From assembly GCF_004307425.1 (NCBI RefSeq), contig NZ_SEWZ01000003.1, positions 558,001 to 622,000 on the forward strand: DNA of 64,000 nt. Direction: 5' to 3'. Source of the stretch: Aquirufa antheringensis (GTDB lineage Bacteria; Bacteroidota; Bacteroidia; Cytophagales; Spirosomataceae). Position numbers and translations under genes: made by a program. Below the pieces are notes generated by a model. The model was not told the origin of the DNA and made no database searches. It was given only the letters and a program-made list of their open reading frames with translations. Positions 7,538 to 50,951 of this stretch are shown one piece after another; the first letter of the stretch is position 1; each line of letters opens with the position of its first letter.

Positions 7538-8473
7538 ATGGAAAAGATACGCGTATATGCGCCAGCGACGGTAGCGAATGTAGCTTGTGGATTTGATATC
7601 TTCGGCTTTGCTGTGAATCATCCTGGAGATGAGGTCGTGTTAGAAAAGAAAGCGACTCCAGGAATCGTTATTAAAGAAATCACAGGGGATGATGGCCGTT
7701 TGCCTAAGGCTGTAGAGAAAAATACCGCTGGTATTGCCATCCAAAAGTACTTAGCACATATCGGTCGCGAAGATCAAGGATTTGAATTGTCGCTGCATAA
7801 AGATATGCCTTTAGGCTCCGGCTTAGGGTCTTCAGCTGCTTCAGCGGTTGCGGGCGTTTTTGCAGCAAATGAATTAATGGGCCGCCCTTTATCACAAAAG
7901 GACCTCTTGCCCTTCGCGATGGAAGGCGAGCGCGTCGCCTGCGGCTCCGCGCACGCAGACAACGTAGGTCCTTCGCTCTTAGGAGGCTTTATTGTCATTC
8001 GTTCCTACGATCCCTTAGATATCATTCAAGTGCCTGTGCCTGCAGATCTATATGCGAGTATTGTCCACCCGCAAATCGAGGTGAATACGAAAGATGCGCG
8101 CGGAATTTTAGATAAAGAAATCTCATTGGCCACTACCATCACCCAAATGGGGAATGTTGCCGGACTAGTAGCAGGGTTACTATTGCCCGATTATGAGCTG
8201 ATTGGTCGTTCCTTAGTCGATGTGATCATCGAGCCCTCTCGAGCGATCTTAATCCCTGGTTTTGCGGAAGTAAAAGCTGCTGCGATTGCTAGCGGTGCGC
8301 TAGGTTGTTCCATTTCAGGTTCCGGACCTTCGTTATTTGCCTTATCTAAAGGAGAAGAAACCGCCCAAAAAGTAGCGAAAGCGATGGCCGCAGAATTTGC
8401 CGCCTTGGGTATTGGATCAGAGCAATATGTTTCTCAAATCAACCAAAAAGGTCCAGTTGTTTTAGCCGATTAG
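7538..8473 (+). CDS. thrB: Homoserine kinase
   Basis: This GHMP-family kinase phosphorylates homoserine on the way to threonine. It has 311 residues from the start chosen here (MEKIRVYAPATVANVACGFD), one base after the thrA stop; an upstream in-frame Met at 7493 would lie inside thrA and is rejected. The ATP loop PLGSGLGSSAASA is clear, as is the C-terminal GHMP motif SISGSGPSLFALS. The usual third gene, thrC, is not next: the neighbour is the convergent xer gene, whose stop codon overlaps this one. Confidence 0.96.
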   Translation: MEKIRVYAPATVANVACGFDIFGFAVNHPGDEVVLEKKATPGIVIKEITGDDGRLPKAVEKNTAGIAIQKYLAHIGREDQGFELSLHKDMPLGSGLGSSAASAVAGVFAANELMGRPLSQKDLLPFAMEGERVACGSAHADNVGPSLLGGFIVIRSYDPLDIIQVPVPADLYASIVHPQIEVNTKDARGILDKEISLATTITQMGNVAGLVAGLLLPDYELIGRSLVDVIIEPSRAILIPGFAEVKAAAIASGALGCSISGSGPSLFALSKGEETAQKVAKAMAAEFAALGIGSEQYVSQINQKGPVVLAD

Positions 8474-9339
8474 GCCTTCGGATGCGCTTGTAAGTAGATC
8501 GCTTTCATTTTCTCCATCGAGTTATGGGTATATACTTGCGTAGCTGCCAAATTCGCATGTCCTAATAACTCTTTGATGGCATTCAAATCCGCCCCTTTGT
8601 TCAAAAGGTGTGTCGCATAGGTGTGACGCAATACGTGTGGAGAAAGCTTCTCTAGTTGGCTATATTCTCCTAGATTTTTCTTGACTAAACGTTGTACAAA
8701 CATGGGGTACAGTGGTTCCCCTTTATCTGTGAGTAGTAAATGGGCGTGTTCTACGGTGCAAAAGCTGCGATACGTTGCTATTAAGTCAACAAGTAAGCCA
8801 GGAATAGGAATCATCCGTTCCTTATTTCGCTTTCCGATTACTCGAATTGTTTTAGCTGCTAGATTGACTTGATTGTTTTGCAGAGAAATCAATTCTGCCA
8901 GACGAATGCCTGTTCCGTAAAGTAAAAACAGGATAAGTTCGTCTCTCGCCTCGCTGAAATTCGTAGCGATTTTCCGGTTATTCACCAGGTTTTCCATCTC
9001 TGATTCCCGGACAAATTGGGGTATTTTCTTGGTGGTTTTGACCATCCGAATAGAGGTCATTGGATTTTCTGCTATTTTCCCCGTACGCAAAAGGTACTTA
9101 TAGAAGGTACGAAGTGTGGCCAATTTGCGGTTAATACTTCGGTTTTGGATAGAATCATCGGATAAGCTGATGAGCCATTTTCGAATGGTTAACGCTTGGA
9201 CTTGTGATAGCTCCGTAGAAGCGATGAAAGCGCTAAACTGTTCTAAGTCAGTGGAGTAGGAGGTAATTGTATGCGAACTGAGGCGCCTTTCGATGGACAG
9301 GTGGTCCAAAAAAAAATTGACTAATTCACGATTCATCAT
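8470..9339 (-). CDS. Tyrosine recombinase of the XerC/XerD type
   Basis: This is a site-specific recombinase expected to resolve chromosome dimers at dif. Its 289 residues are the typical Xer length. The N-terminal SAM-like DNA-binding domain is at about 1-85 and the catalytic domain follows, with the full set Arg146 (GTGIRLAEL), Lys170, His235-x-x-Arg238 (HVLRHTYATH), His261 (LLGHANL) and nucleophile Tyr270. It lies 37 bp downstream of rpsU on the same strand, a core-gene setting, so I read it as a housekeeping Xer rather than a mobile-element integrase. Whether it is XerC or XerD is not decided. Its stop overlaps the thrB stop (convergent). Confidence 0.9.
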   Translation of the reverse strand: MMNRELVNFFLDHLSIERRLSSHTITSYSTDLEQFSAFIASTELSQVQALTIRKWLISLSDDSIQNRSINRKLATLRTFYKYLLRTGKIAENPMTSIRMVKTTKKIPQFVRESEMENLVNNRKIATNFSEARDELILFLLYGTGIRLAELISLQNNQVNLAAKTIRVIGKRNKERMIPIPGLLVDLIATYRSFCTVEHAHLLLTDKGEPLYPMFVQRLVKKNLGEYSQLEKLSPHVLRHTYATHLLNKGADLNAIKELLGHANLAATQVYTHNSMEKMKAIYLQAHPKA

Positions 9340-46710: not shown

Positions 46711-46758
46711 TCTTGTGGTTTACAATCTATTTAACATAATATAAATTATATAACAAAT

Positions 46759-46830: not shown

Positions 46831-46866
46831 CCTGACTACTGTCCACTGACTACTGGTTACTGACCT
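46831..46866 (-). repeat. Period-7 ACTG repeat array (right arm, inverted relative to the left)
   Basis: ACTG, the reverse complement of CAGT, occurs at 46838, 46845, 46852 and 46859 with exact 7-base spacing, plus a degenerate CCTG at 46831. The array overlaps the last codons and the stop of the histidine-kinase gene (QVSNQ-stop). Confidence 0.85.
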
Positions 46867-48223
46867 GAAATGTCACTGTAAACTCCGTATAGGAATCCGG
46901 TACCGAAACCACCGATATTTGGCCATTGTGTAATTGAACGATGCGTTCAACGAGGGATAATCCGATACCGTATCCCTTGGAAGAAGCCGTATTTTCGCCT
47001 CTAAAGAACGGTTGGAAGATATAAGGTAAATCGTTCGCTGGGATGCCTTTTCCTTCGTTTCTGACGAAAATTTGGATGGAATTTCCGGAGTTCTTGAAGC
47101 TAACTTGTGCCGAATTTGACGGGCTGAATTTACAAGCATTCTCCATTAAATTCTTAAGGGCCGTTAAGATTAGTTTGTCATCTGCCTTGATTAATAGCAT
47201 TTCCTCATCTTCCGGCATATGTGAAGTGTCGATGCTGACTTTATAGGCGGAGTTTAGTTTTTGGGTTAGACTTCTTGCTTCCCAAAGAATTTCATCGATT
47301 CTCCATTCATGAAAGCCTGCCTGGCTGTCAGATAAGCTTAATTTGTTTAACTCTAATAAGGATTCCGTGATGGCAGCTAATTCTTGGGTATCTTCTAAGA
47401 CTGAGCTGATCGTTTTTTTGTAGTCACCTGATTCTCTTTCCTTTAATAAACTCACTTCTAATTGAGAGGATATTTTTGTCAAAGGATTTTTCAATTCATG
47501 CGAAACGTTCGCAATAAAGGTCTTTTGCAATTTAAAGGCGTTCTCAATACGTTCTAGTAAGCGGTTGACCGTGGACACCATCTTCCCTATTTCGTCCTCA
47601 AAATCAGGCGATTTGAGACGTTCTTCCAGGCGTTTGGGTGATAATTTATCAACTTGTTGGATAACTTCAGAGATCGGATTGACTGCTTGACCGGCAAAAA
47701 ACCAGCCTGATAGTACTACAATAAGGATAAATAAGAGAAATAAGGCGATGAGGATGTTCTTTAAATCTTTGGCATTCTCTGCCGAATATTGATCCACTGC
47801 CCCCGCAAAGACGACTAAACGACCCTGTGGAGTGGCGAAAACGGTCCCTAAAACCTCGATATCTTCCCGTTGGAAGGTGATTTCTTGCTTTTGGCGGACT
47901 TGTTTAATGAGATCAACATCGATATGAAGATTGATGCTGTCATTCGATGCGTAGATACGCTCGTTGCATAAATCGTAGACCAAAATGCTCTCCCGGAATA
48001 GTAAATCGCGGTTCGTTTGCCCGATGATCCCCATTAATTTGGAGTCTACTTGGTTTACATTGACCAATAGTTGGGCCGTAGTGTTCGCTTTTTGGCGTAA
48101 ACGGCTATAAAATTTGTCTTTGTAATTCTCTTGCGTGAAAATGTAGATGATGAAATAGGATACGAATAAAATCGCAGACACGAGGTAGGTAAACTGGTAG
48201 GTCAGCCTGGATCTAATCTGCAT
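46850..48223 (-). CDS. Sensor histidine kinase (two-component system)
   Basis: A 457-residue kinase with two membrane helices (about 9-29 and 157-177) around a periplasmic sensor of about 130 residues. A HAMP region follows (about 180-232), then HisKA with His242 (FIANVSHELKNPLTK), and a HATPase domain with N, G1 and G2 boxes (LMENACKFSP, NEGKGIPANDLPYIF, KGYGIGLSLV). The signal is unknown. It is third in an operon after a MazG-like gene and an OmpR-type regulator. The last five residues are encoded by repeat DNA. Confidence 0.95.
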   Translation of the reverse strand: MQIRSRLTYQFTYLVSAILFVSYFIIYIFTQENYKDKFYSRLRQKANTTAQLLVNVNQVDSKLMGIIGQTNRDLLFRESILVYDLCNERIYASNDSINLHIDVDLIKQVRQKQEITFQREDIEVLGTVFATPQGRLVVFAGAVDQYSAENAKDLKNILIALFLLFILIVVLSGWFFAGQAVNPISEVIQQVDKLSPKRLEERLKSPDFEDEIGKMVSTVNRLLERIENAFKLQKTFIANVSHELKNPLTKISSQLEVSLLKERESGDYKKTISSVLEDTQELAAITESLLELNKLSLSDSQAGFHEWRIDEILWEARSLTQKLNSAYKVSIDTSHMPEDEEMLLIKADDKLILTALKNLMENACKFSPSNSAQVSFKNSGNSIQIFVRNEGKGIPANDLPYIFQPFFRGENTASSKGYGIGLSLVERIVQLHNGQISVVSVPDSYTEFTVTFQVSNQ

Positions 48224-48225
48224 AA

Positions 48226-48906
48226 TTATTCGTTTTTAAGGATATAACCTCTGCCAAATTGAGTGTGAATCAACTTACTTGCAAAGCCTTTATCTACCTT
48301 TTTACGTAAGTAATTGACATAAACTTCGATCAAATTCGAGCTATTTTCATCCTCTACTTCCCAAATATTCTCGGCTATTTGAGCCTTCGAAATCACCATT
48401 TCTTGGTTTCTTAGAAAGTACTCCAATAATTGAAACTCTTTGGAAGTCAAATTGATGGATTGCCCAGAGCGCGTGACTAATTTACTGATGAGATCCATCT
48501 CTAAATCAGCGAATTTCAGCACTTGCGCATCTAATTGGGTTTGTGATGAACGTTTTAATAGGGCCTTGATACGTGCCAAAAACTCCTTAAAATCAAAGGG
48601 TTTGCCCAGATAATCATCTGCACCAGCATCAAAACCAAGCAGCTTGTCGTCCGTTGTACTCAAGGCTGTCAGCATTAAAATGGGCGTCTGAATTCCCTCT
48701 GCTCTCAACTGTTTACATAATTCAAGGCCATTGATGCCCGGAATAATGATGTCCGATACAATCAAGGAGTAATTATTTCGCAAGGCTAATTGCTTCGCGA
48801 TAGTTCCGTCATAGGCCACTTCAACCTCATAGCTGTTCTCTTCTAATCCTTGTTTCAGGGATTGAACAGTTTTAGGTTCGTCTTCTATGAGGAGTATTTT
48901 GATCAT
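48226..48906 (-). CDS. OmpR/PhoB-family response regulator
   Basis: A 226-residue regulator: the receiver domain has phosphoacceptor Asp52 (LIVSDIIIPGING), Thr/Ser in MLTALS and Lys in GKPFDFKEF, and the winged-helix output domain has VTRSGQSINLTSKEFQLLEY. It ends 2 bases before the histidine kinase start and begins with a 4-base overlap on the MazG-like gene stop, so it is the partner of the kinase. Confidence 0.95.
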   Translation of the reverse strand: MIKILLIEDEPKTVQSLKQGLEENSYEVEVAYDGTIAKQLALRNNYSLIVSDIIIPGINGLELCKQLRAEGIQTPILMLTALSTTDDKLLGFDAGADDYLGKPFDFKEFLARIKALLKRSSQTQLDAQVLKFADLEMDLISKLVTRSGQSINLTSKEFQLLEYFLRNQEMVISKAQIAENIWEVEDENSSNLIEVYVNYLRKKVDKGFASKLIHTQFGRGYILKNE

Positions 48907-49370
48907 TTTAGGATGGATTTCAAGTCCGCTGGAGAGTAATTAATGGACTTTAATACTTTATTATCAGCCTTACGGTACACTTTCCAAACACCGTTTTCTT
49001 CCTTTATCTCCGCTTCTGTACCATCTTTATCTTTGTAAAATTTCACGGTATATTCTGCTTCTTCTAAGGATGCACAGGCTTTGGACATATTCGAACGCTG
49101 TACTTCATTAAATAATTCGACGAATTTTTCACCCATTCCAAACTCCAAAACAGCTCCGGATAAAACATATTGAAGATCACAAAGTGCATCAGCAACCTCC
49201 ACTAAATCGTTCGCCGCTATCGCTTCTTTTAATTCGTCTAATTCTTCTGCTAAAAGGCTTACACGCAGATTGCAACGTTCGATAGCTGGAATAGCCGGTT
49301 GAGCAACGACAGGGGCTCCAAAGGTGTGATGAAATTGTGCTACCTGGTTTAATGAGTCTAATTTTTCCAT
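48903..49370 (-). CDS. MazG-like nucleoside triphosphate pyrophosphohydrolase
   Basis: A 155-residue protein of the all-alpha NTP pyrophosphatase superfamily. The metal-binding pattern is LLAEELDELKEAI, then VEVADALCDLQYVLSGAV (EExxE and ExxD motifs). The C-terminal 45 residues are an extension with beta-rich, polar character (YTVKFYKDKDGTEAEIKEENG, in two pieces). The exact nucleotide is unknown. The start at 49370 is used; an earlier Met at 49400 adds ten hydrophobic residues. It heads the operon with the response regulator and kinase. Confidence 0.85.
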   Translation of the reverse strand: MEKLDSLNQVAQFHHTFGAPVVAQPAIPAIERCNLRVSLLAEELDELKEAIAANDLVEVADALCDLQYVLSGAVLEFGMGEKFVELFNEVQRSNMSKACASLEEAEYTVKFYKDKDGTEAEIKEENGVWKVYRKADNKVLKSINYSPADLKSILK

Positions 49371-49405
49371 ATAAATGATTAATAGAATAAAATTAATCAA
49401 TTAAT
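49371..49405. other. AT-rich tract next to the DnaA-box cluster
   Basis: These 35 bases are almost pure A and T and could act as a duplex-unwinding element if the neighbouring DnaA boxes mark an origin. They also carry a -7-like TAATTTTA for the MazG-like gene on the minus strand. Confidence 0.4.
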
Positions 49406-49450
49406 GCGGGGGAAGCAATAAGGTTCAGAACCAGAATATCGAAAATACAA

Positions 49451-49522
49451 TTGTGCACAAGTGTGGATAACTTGTGGATAACTCAAGAGCAATATGTGGA
49501 TAAGTCTACTATTTGTTCACAA
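49451..49522. other. Cluster of DnaA boxes (possible replication origin or DnaA regulatory site)
   Basis: TGTGGATAA, the reverse complement of the perfect DnaA box TTATCCACA, occurs three times: 49462-49470, 49473-49481 and 49495-49503. The first two are 11 bases apart. One-mismatch boxes are at 49451-49459 (TTGTGCACA, palindromic with 49452-49460) and 49514-49522 (TTGTTCACA). An AT-rich tract lies 45-80 bases to the left. dnaA is not in the window and gene orientation does not flip here, so origin status is not settled. Confidence 0.55.
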
Positions 49523-49534
49523 TTCTCATTTTGT

Positions 49535-50020
49535 TTACACGGGTTTACTTTCAGAGAAAGTACCATCTGTATAAAAAATAAGGACGCGTTCAATCTTTTT
49601 AGCGAGATGAGTAGTAGTCGTGGGAGCTGCCACCACAGGTTGACTTGCTTTAGGGCTACTTTCTCTAGGGCGTCTGAGATTCGATTGTACGATCGTTTGT
49701 TCAGGTAAACTATTTCTAAGCGATTCTGGAGCGCTAGGTGTAACAGCATCAAAAAGTGATGGAGTGGAAGCGATCGGAGAAGGAGCTGTTTTAGGAGCGG
49801 GTGCCGAAATAGATAAATCCCGTTTATCATCTAATAACTCCTCCGCGGGGATTTCAGGGAAAGCGATGAGAATCTTTTGTACAACATCTAAGCTAGGCTT
49901 ATTTCTGCCCGATAGAATATGAGAAATACTACTGCGAGGAATTCCTAAGGTATCTGCAAACTGAGAGGCACTTAACTTCTTAGCCTGAATTAACAATTCT
50001 ATTTTTGCGCTTAGATTCAT
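49535..50020 (-). CDS. XRE-family helix-turn-helix regulator
   Basis: A 161-residue protein. The N-terminal HTH_3 domain is MNLSAKIELLIQAKKLSASQ followed by FADTLGIPRSSISHILSGRNKPSL. A disordered, Pro/Ser/Ala-rich linker runs at about 70-138. A short conserved C-terminal tail follows, KKIERVLIFYTDGTFSE, that could be a dimerisation or sensing strand. A perfect 16-bp-arm inverted repeat surrounds its promoter, so it probably controls itself. No toxin gene is adjacent, so it is not a toxin-antitoxin pair. Confidence 0.9.
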   Translation of the reverse strand: MNLSAKIELLIQAKKLSASQFADTLGIPRSSISHILSGRNKPSLDVVQKILIAFPEIPAEELLDDKRDLSISAPAPKTAPSPIASTPSLFDAVTPSAPESLRNSLPEQTIVQSNLRRPRESSPKASQPVVAAPTTTTHLAKKIERVLIFYTDGTFSESKPV

Positions 50021-50021
50021 T

Positions 50022-50076
50022 TTTGTAAACTTGATTAATATGTTACAAATTTAAACAATCTAATCAAGTTTACAAA
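50022..50076. promoter_or_regulatory. Large inverted-repeat operator around the XRE promoter
   Basis: TTTGTAAACTTGATTA at 50022-50037 is the exact reverse complement of TAATCAAGTTTACAAA at 50061-50076 (16 of 16), with a 23-base spacer. The spacer holds the minus-strand -7 element TAAATTTG (50053-50046), and the right arm contains the -33 TTTG (50076-50073). The left arm covers the start of transcription. A third partial copy, AGTTTACAAA, is at 50100-50109. Confidence 0.8.
50046..50053 (-). promoter_or_regulatory. -7 promoter element of the XRE gene
   Basis: On the minus strand, TAAATTTG is a perfect TAnnTTTG, with TTTG at 50076-50073 as -33 and a 19-nt spacer. It sits between the arms of the inverted repeat. 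Confidence 0.75.
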
Positions 50077-50102
50077 TTGAAATTTGAGTAATAAGTGATA
50101 GT

Positions 50103-50951
50103 TTACAAAAGTGACACACAATCAGAATGCAATGCAATCAGTTTACTTTTGTATAATCCTCCAATCGCTTTTTTGAAGTCCTTTTTAGACATACCTAACT
50201 GATCGTAGATATCTTCGGCTGGGCTTTTATCGTGTAGATATAGAACACCTTTGTTATCTTTAATTGCTTGTAATACTTTCTCTACTTGCGCATCTAAACG
50301 TATACGTCCTACCGGTTCCAAACGTAAATCCAGGCGCCCGTCTTCGCGTAAGTTCTCGATGTATACAAATGTACTTCTGCCTAATATCACATTTGCAAAT
50401 ATTTCATTTTTGAACAGCATTCCGATTTTACAATTGTCAACTAAGCATTTAATGCCTAAGTCAGTGTATTCAAATGGAACTGCTTCTATTTTTGTACCAG
50501 CTGCAAAACGATTCTCCTCATCTTCTATGAAGGCGGGTAAGAAGTTTTCTATTCTAGCTGATGCGACGATGCGATCTGTTTGTGCATCGAGGTATATATA
50601 AACGAGGTAGAATTTCCCTACCACCATTTTTTGATACTGTTGACTAAAGGGAACAAATAAGTCTTTTGCTAATCCCCATTCTAGGAATACACCTAATGGA
50701 GTAACTGATTTAACCTCCAAATAAGCGAATTGCTTAATAGTGGCGTAGGGTTTTAAGGTGGTGGCGATGATGCGATCTTCCGAGTCACGGTAGATAAATA
50801 CATCAATCGATGAATCGATTTCATACGTTTCTGGAACGTATTGCAAGGGTAAAAGGATTTCATCTTCGTAACCATCTAAATAGAGGCCAAAAGGTACTTC
50901 TTTGATAATACGAAGGTGATTGTATTCACCAATTTTCAATTCATTTTCCAT
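50103..50951 (-). CDS. CvfB/YitL-type RNA-binding protein (S1 domains plus winged helix)
   Basis: A 282-residue protein with three S1-like OB domains (about 5-65, 70-140 and 150-210; FAYLEVKSVTPLGVFLEWG is the best) and a C-terminal winged helix (VLYLHDKSPAEDIYDQLGMSK in two halves). It matches the family of S. aureus CvfB, which affects virulence-factor expression; the target RNA is unknown. A hairpin terminator ends 7 bases before its ATG, an unusual place that leaves its promoter unclear. Confidence 0.88.
   Translation of the reverse strand: MENELKIGEYNHLRIIKEVPFGLYLDGYEDEILLPLQYVPETYEIDSSIDVFIYRDSEDRIIATTLKPYATIKQFAYLEVKSVTPLGVFLEWGLAKDLFVPFSQQYQKMVVGKFYLVYIYLDAQTDRIVASARIENFLPAFIEDEENRFAAGTKIEAVPFEYTDLGIKCLVDNCKIGMLFKNEIFANVILGRSTFVYIENLREDGRLDLRLEPVGRIRLDAQVEKVLQAIKDNKGVLYLHDKSPAEDIYDQLGMSKKDFKKAIGGLYKSKLIALHSDCVSLL

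Follow-up and report, generated by a model that had tools for sequence, protein, structure and literature searches.

Three exact DnaA boxes lie in front of a mazG-like gene of Aquirufa antheringensis, which raises the question of whether they belong to an origin of replication or to a site at which the initiator serves another purpose. Within the window (the whole 64,000-nucleotide stretch of contig NZ_SEWZ01000003.1 analysed here), the boxes were found as TGTGGATAA on the forward strand at 49462, 49473 and 49495, each reading TTATCCACA on the minus strand (box 1, closest to mazG, 49462-49470; box 2, 49473-49481; box 3, 49495-49503) and all three falling within 42 bp. As a preliminary description of this DNA had noted, two of them have an 11-base spacing (the starts of boxes 1 and 2 are 11 bp apart, with a gap of 2 bp), and an almost pure A/T tract lies nearby, at about 49371-49408. 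The one-mismatch boxes that it had placed on either side were not recovered: scanning 41.5-51.4 kb at up to one mismatch returned just the three exact boxes, and the flanking sites, a relaxed box-like TTGTGCACA (49452-49460, starting 10 bp from box 1 and lying within the palindrome TTGTGCACAA at 49451-49460) and a weak box-like TTGTGAACA (49514-49522, largely conserved in clade A, the window's own clade), are two mismatches from the box, both on the minus strand.

A box cluster away from the origin

The 2.5-Mb genome holds 45 exact boxes, nine of them in the predicted oriC, three in the window cluster and the others scattered, such that the nearest other pair outside both clusters, genome-wide, is 270 bp apart. 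When the 36 non-oriC boxes were placed at random, none of 200,000 placements put three starts within 33 bp, and the chance expectation for such a triple is about 5e-6 under this model, in keeping with the earlier judgement that the density exceeds chance. These trials, together with the invariance of all three boxes in 8/8 clade-A genomes, rule out a chance cluster. Nor are similar clusters common elsewhere, an outcome that had been named as grounds for setting the site aside: the genome-wide count shows no other cluster outside oriC.

The suggestion that the locus is an oriC did not hold, the origin being predicted elsewhere. The densest box cluster in the genome is on another contig, C2, where nine exact boxes fall within 412 bp (C2:376495-376907) between lipoprotein-like and acyl-CoA-ligase-like genes, 2.5 kb past mnmG. 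Along C2, GC skew is for the most part negative up to 376.7 kb and positive beyond, its local minimum (C2:376.7 kb) coincides exactly with the nine boxes, and three perfect parS palindromes (C2:370506-372136) lie 4-6 kb from these boxes; contig C3, which carries the window, yielded no parS match. The dnaA gene is on contig C4, away from both the predicted oriC and the window cluster. The origin of a single-contig relative (G011) is of this type too, its ten exact boxes lying at 1241620-1242044. The window cluster is not at the GC-skew minimum; positive skew ends there rather than begins, and a dif-like site adjoins it, which places the locus at the opposite end of the replication cycle. That it serves as a chromosomal or secondary origin is therefore most improbable, even though its clustered exact boxes adjoin an A/T tract and the TGTGGATAACTTGTGGATAA tandem also occurs at the oriC edge in several genomes. 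The A/T stretch itself is predicted to be the mazG promoter and is not an obvious unwinding element.

The predicted terminus

We assign the window cluster to the terminus because a predicted dif site lies 2.7 kb away and because positive skew ends there. The candidate, TTGTTATATAATTTATATTATGTTAAAT (46729-46756, minus strand), is a 28-bp, Xer-type, intergenic and conserved sequence near the skew shift; on the dif matrix it outscores everything else across the 400 kb scanned on C3 and anything in 400 kb of C2. Because no Bacteroidota dif sequence given as text was found in the literature, the prediction rests on a matrix built from four known dif sites, together with conservation and skew. Every genus locus with DNA extending as far as the site (15 of 15) carries its 21-base core beside mazG, with no more than one mismatch, and the core also lies beside mazG in lineages g2, g18, g24 and g30 and in Siphonobacter. 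Skew in the window genome is +0.055 over the 100 kb left of dif and -0.012 over the remaining 33 kb of the contig (5-kb bins, p=0.008); viewed from the box cluster, about 370 kb on the left show positive skew, and the right side is near zero to slightly negative. In two relatives (G038 and G081), skew turns from positive to negative no more than about 5 kb from dif/mazG. The two arms of G011 differ in length (0.89 and 1.6 Mb), but these values are unreliable because its GC skew is rearranged, with several extremes that presumably reflect inversions.

In the window, the predicted dif separates a TPR gene from the presumed operon that begins with mazG. On the other side of dif, a TPR gene is present in most of the dif-linked genera examined, and the order TPR-dif-mazG is kept across several Spirosomaceae genera and Siphonobacter. 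A tyrosine recombinase of XerC/XerD type, judged by eye, is encoded at 8470-9339 of the window and is a possible partner of the predicted dif. Two further motifs were noted upstream of mazG in relatives. Palindromes of the form CTGAT[AT]ATCAG, present in some, proved not to be terminus-specific, and a half-parS-like TGTT[CT]CACGTG[AG]AT is conserved 120-215 bp upstream of the dif-adjoining mazG in g2, g18, g24 and g30 (L106-L109, L132-L134) and absent in Aquirufa.

An array at this position could be a DnaA reservoir or activity switch, acting by titration or in the manner of datA and DARS, with the adjacency of mazG incidental: among the last loci copied, it would double at termination and so couple completion to the free or active DnaA available for the next initiation. 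Arrays occur in the dif-linked lineages g1, g24 and g30 and are missing from every sampled lineage that lacks a dif nearby (g26, whose DNA stops short of dif, has the gene order of dif-linked lineages), and the distance from array to dif is nearly constant within the genus (2.56-2.85 kb). A supply of several exact boxes in a shifting arrangement would also suit such a role. In E. coli, the chromosomal position of datA and DARS relative to oriC is conserved, and DARS cores contain three boxes (PMC4585315); compared on box count and position, datA, DARS1 and DARS2 resemble the Aquirufa array in being non-coding DnaA-box clusters outside oriC, but all three E. coli loci lie away from the terminus. 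Moreover, phylogeny confounds the association between array and dif. Because the boxes always lie 5' of the mazG promoter, never inside the dif intergenic region, and because three dif-linked lineages (g2, g18 and Siphonobacter) have no array, we favor a role at the promoter and regard a terminus reservoir as possible but somewhat unlikely. We are more doubtful still that the array by dif is a replication-completion sensor coupling termination to the next initiation, which, being copied last, would act solely at the meeting of the forks, by changing DnaA availability or nucleotide state or by switching the adjacent dUTPase/two-component operon.

Conservation of the array at the predicted mazG promoter

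The upstream region could be read in 33 genus genomes, every one of which carries a box array 5' of the same mazG gene, and 32 of these arrays contain at least three exact boxes, the remaining one having two exact plus one-mismatch boxes. Within clade A (eight genomes), 27/27 box columns are invariant versus 65/171 flanking columns (p=9e-11, to be read only as a guide because the genomes are related). The tandem pair with its 2-bp gap is kept in other clades, often with one member degenerate, and arrangements otherwise differ: across clades, a TTGTG[CA]ACA site starts 10 bp after the second box of the tandem pair, and most clades outside that of the window add an inverted pair, TTATCCACA-N6-TGTGGATAA, with a gap of 6 bp. 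The sister genus g26 has the same array grammar, and in g30 and g24 exact boxes are found 5' of mazG, yet the XRE and response regulator/histidine kinase (RR/HK) genes are not its neighbors. Exact boxes at mazG are absent from the other family genera sampled and from the outgroup mazG loci of Pedobacter, Mucilaginibacter and Chryseobacterium, so DnaA control would not be a general need of mazG. The box-bearing lineages largely coincide with those in which mazG is linked to dif, linkage outside the genus being assessed over the approximately 1.2 kb downstream of mazG covered in most other genera.

The mazG, two-component and XRE genes around the array are all on the minus strand. The mazG-like gene, encoding an all-alpha NTP pyrophosphohydrolase (48903-49370, PF01503), overlaps that of an OmpR-type response regulator (48226-48906, PF00072 and PF00486), followed by a sensor histidine kinase (46850-48223, with HAMP, HisKA and HATPase_c domains), and we infer that mazG-RR-HK is an operon. 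The predicted -7 element of the mazG promoter, TAATTTTA (49388-49395, minus strand), has a TTG 23 bp upstream (49414-49418); wherever the upstream region could be read in the genus, the element recurs 25-30 bp ahead of the ATG, and the TTG recurs in some genomes only. The exact boxes precede this predicted promoter, at 92-133 bp upstream of the ATG. The upstream neighbor throughout the genus is an XRE-family regulator gene (49535-50020, assigned by PF01381 and synteny), and the region around the start of this gene (50020-50150) carries GTTTAC/TTTGTAAAC elements, both inverted and repeated, that are likely its own operator.

This arrangement admits a reading in which the sequence is conserved mainly for another protein, the XRE regulator or the response regulator, bound at TTGTGCACAA-like palindromes, the DnaA boxes being secondary. 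The TTGTGCACAATTGTATTTT block is as invariant in clade A as the boxes are, TTGTGCACAA occurs once in 800 kb, and the XRE gene borders the array throughout the genus, with GTTTAC-containing inverted repeats in front. However, TTATCCACA is identical to the 9-mer used at the oriC of this genome, it reappears in either orientation even where the flanking sequence has changed, and g24 and g30 have boxes with no XRE gene beside mazG, all of which makes this reading improbable. Control of the XRE or two-component genes alone is likewise disfavored, as g24 and g30 keep boxes 5' of mazG next to other neighbors.

On balance, we lean towards a selectively maintained terminus DnaA array in the mazG-RR-HK promoter region that would tie mazG expression to the replication cycle. 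Because the cluster sits where replication ends and in front of mazG, we read it as a control site rather than an origin; thus, of the two interpretations originally offered, the origin falls away, and a titration or regulatory site for the MazG/two-component operon fits the comparative evidence well. Multiple strong boxes lie near a predicted promoter, and their association with the gene extends through the genus (33/33 genomes) to g26, g24 and g30. The array nevertheless looks loose for a promoter site of fixed geometry, because its distance to the mazG ATG (about 70-300 bp), its number of boxes and their orientation all vary. Under the promoter reading, DnaA would probably bind the double box with 2-bp spacing cooperatively and then spread to neighboring strong and weak boxes, and its assembly upstream of TAATTTTA would modulate mazG-RR-HK with the replication cycle, either activation or repression being possible. 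Expression of a dUTP-removing pyrophosphohydrolase, and perhaps of its two-component partners, would in this way follow replication, as does that of nrdAB in E. coli.

To our knowledge, most of what is known about regulation by DnaA comes from Proteobacteria and B. subtilis. If our reading is correct, the array would be a Bacteroidota site of DnaA control, located at the terminus and not close to the origin, and the gene it serves would encode a probable substitute dUTPase; it offers a testable link between the initiator, dUTP clean-up and termination; the analysis also supplies predicted oriC, parS and dif coordinates for Aquirufa. The documented precedent for DnaA control is nrdAB in E. coli (PMC8203912), where several DnaA boxes likewise lie upstream of a gene of deoxynucleotide metabolism and a tie of dNTP quality or supply to replication is proposed, whereas the Aquirufa gene encodes a MazG-like pyrophosphohydrolase in another phylum, its locus is by dif, and its regulation is predicted. 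In vivo, E. coli DnaA is found mostly at tandem boxes 2-3 bp apart, with a regulon that includes nucleotide synthesis (PMC11317965). Such double-box sites (polA, purH, mutH/DARS2) share with Aquirufa the tandem 9-mers and the short gap, exactly 2 bp in the latter, but the Aquirufa array adds a third box, the relaxed TTGTG[CA]ACA and, in most clades, the inverted pair with a 6-bp gap. The clusters of B. subtilis (sda/yqeG, ywlC, ywcI) are also intergenic box arrays outside oriC, at some of which DnaA is a transcription factor (PMC4447404); they serve other genes and are not known to be linked to dif.

MazG as a probable replacement for canonical dUTPase

MazG matches PF01503 over residues 10-94 (E=2.7e-16), with the acidic metal-binding residues E42, E43, E46, D61 and D65 invariant. 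Among solved proteins its nearest relative, at modest similarity (E=4.7e-10), is D. radiodurans DR2231, an enzyme reported to cleave dNTPs, dUTP included (Goncalves 2011, as cited in PMC5122711). Profile searches of the window genome found neither trimeric nor dimeric dUTPase (PF00692, PF08761). Among 193 genomes of the order, 62 have mazG only, 110 have dut (PF00692) only, 19 have both and two have neither (p=9e-31 for mutual exclusion, a value inflated by relatedness), and switches between the two genes occur inside several families. This repeated switching argues for functional replacement, and the near mutual exclusion across the order suggests that replacement of the dUTPase by this MazG-like protein is general. 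Because it is both DR2231-like and nearly exclusive with the canonical enzyme, the Aquirufa MazG is probably a replacement dUTPase, and dUTP would be its substrate on the same two grounds.

Within the family, PF00692 was detected in 3 of 150 genomes, in each case as a weak match to a protein that apparently ends in a C-terminal membrane segment. The only two family genomes sampled that lack mazG (G126 and G106; loci L225 and L226) are both among these three, and their weak PF00692 proteins may provide a third way of removing dUTP or may be defence proteins.
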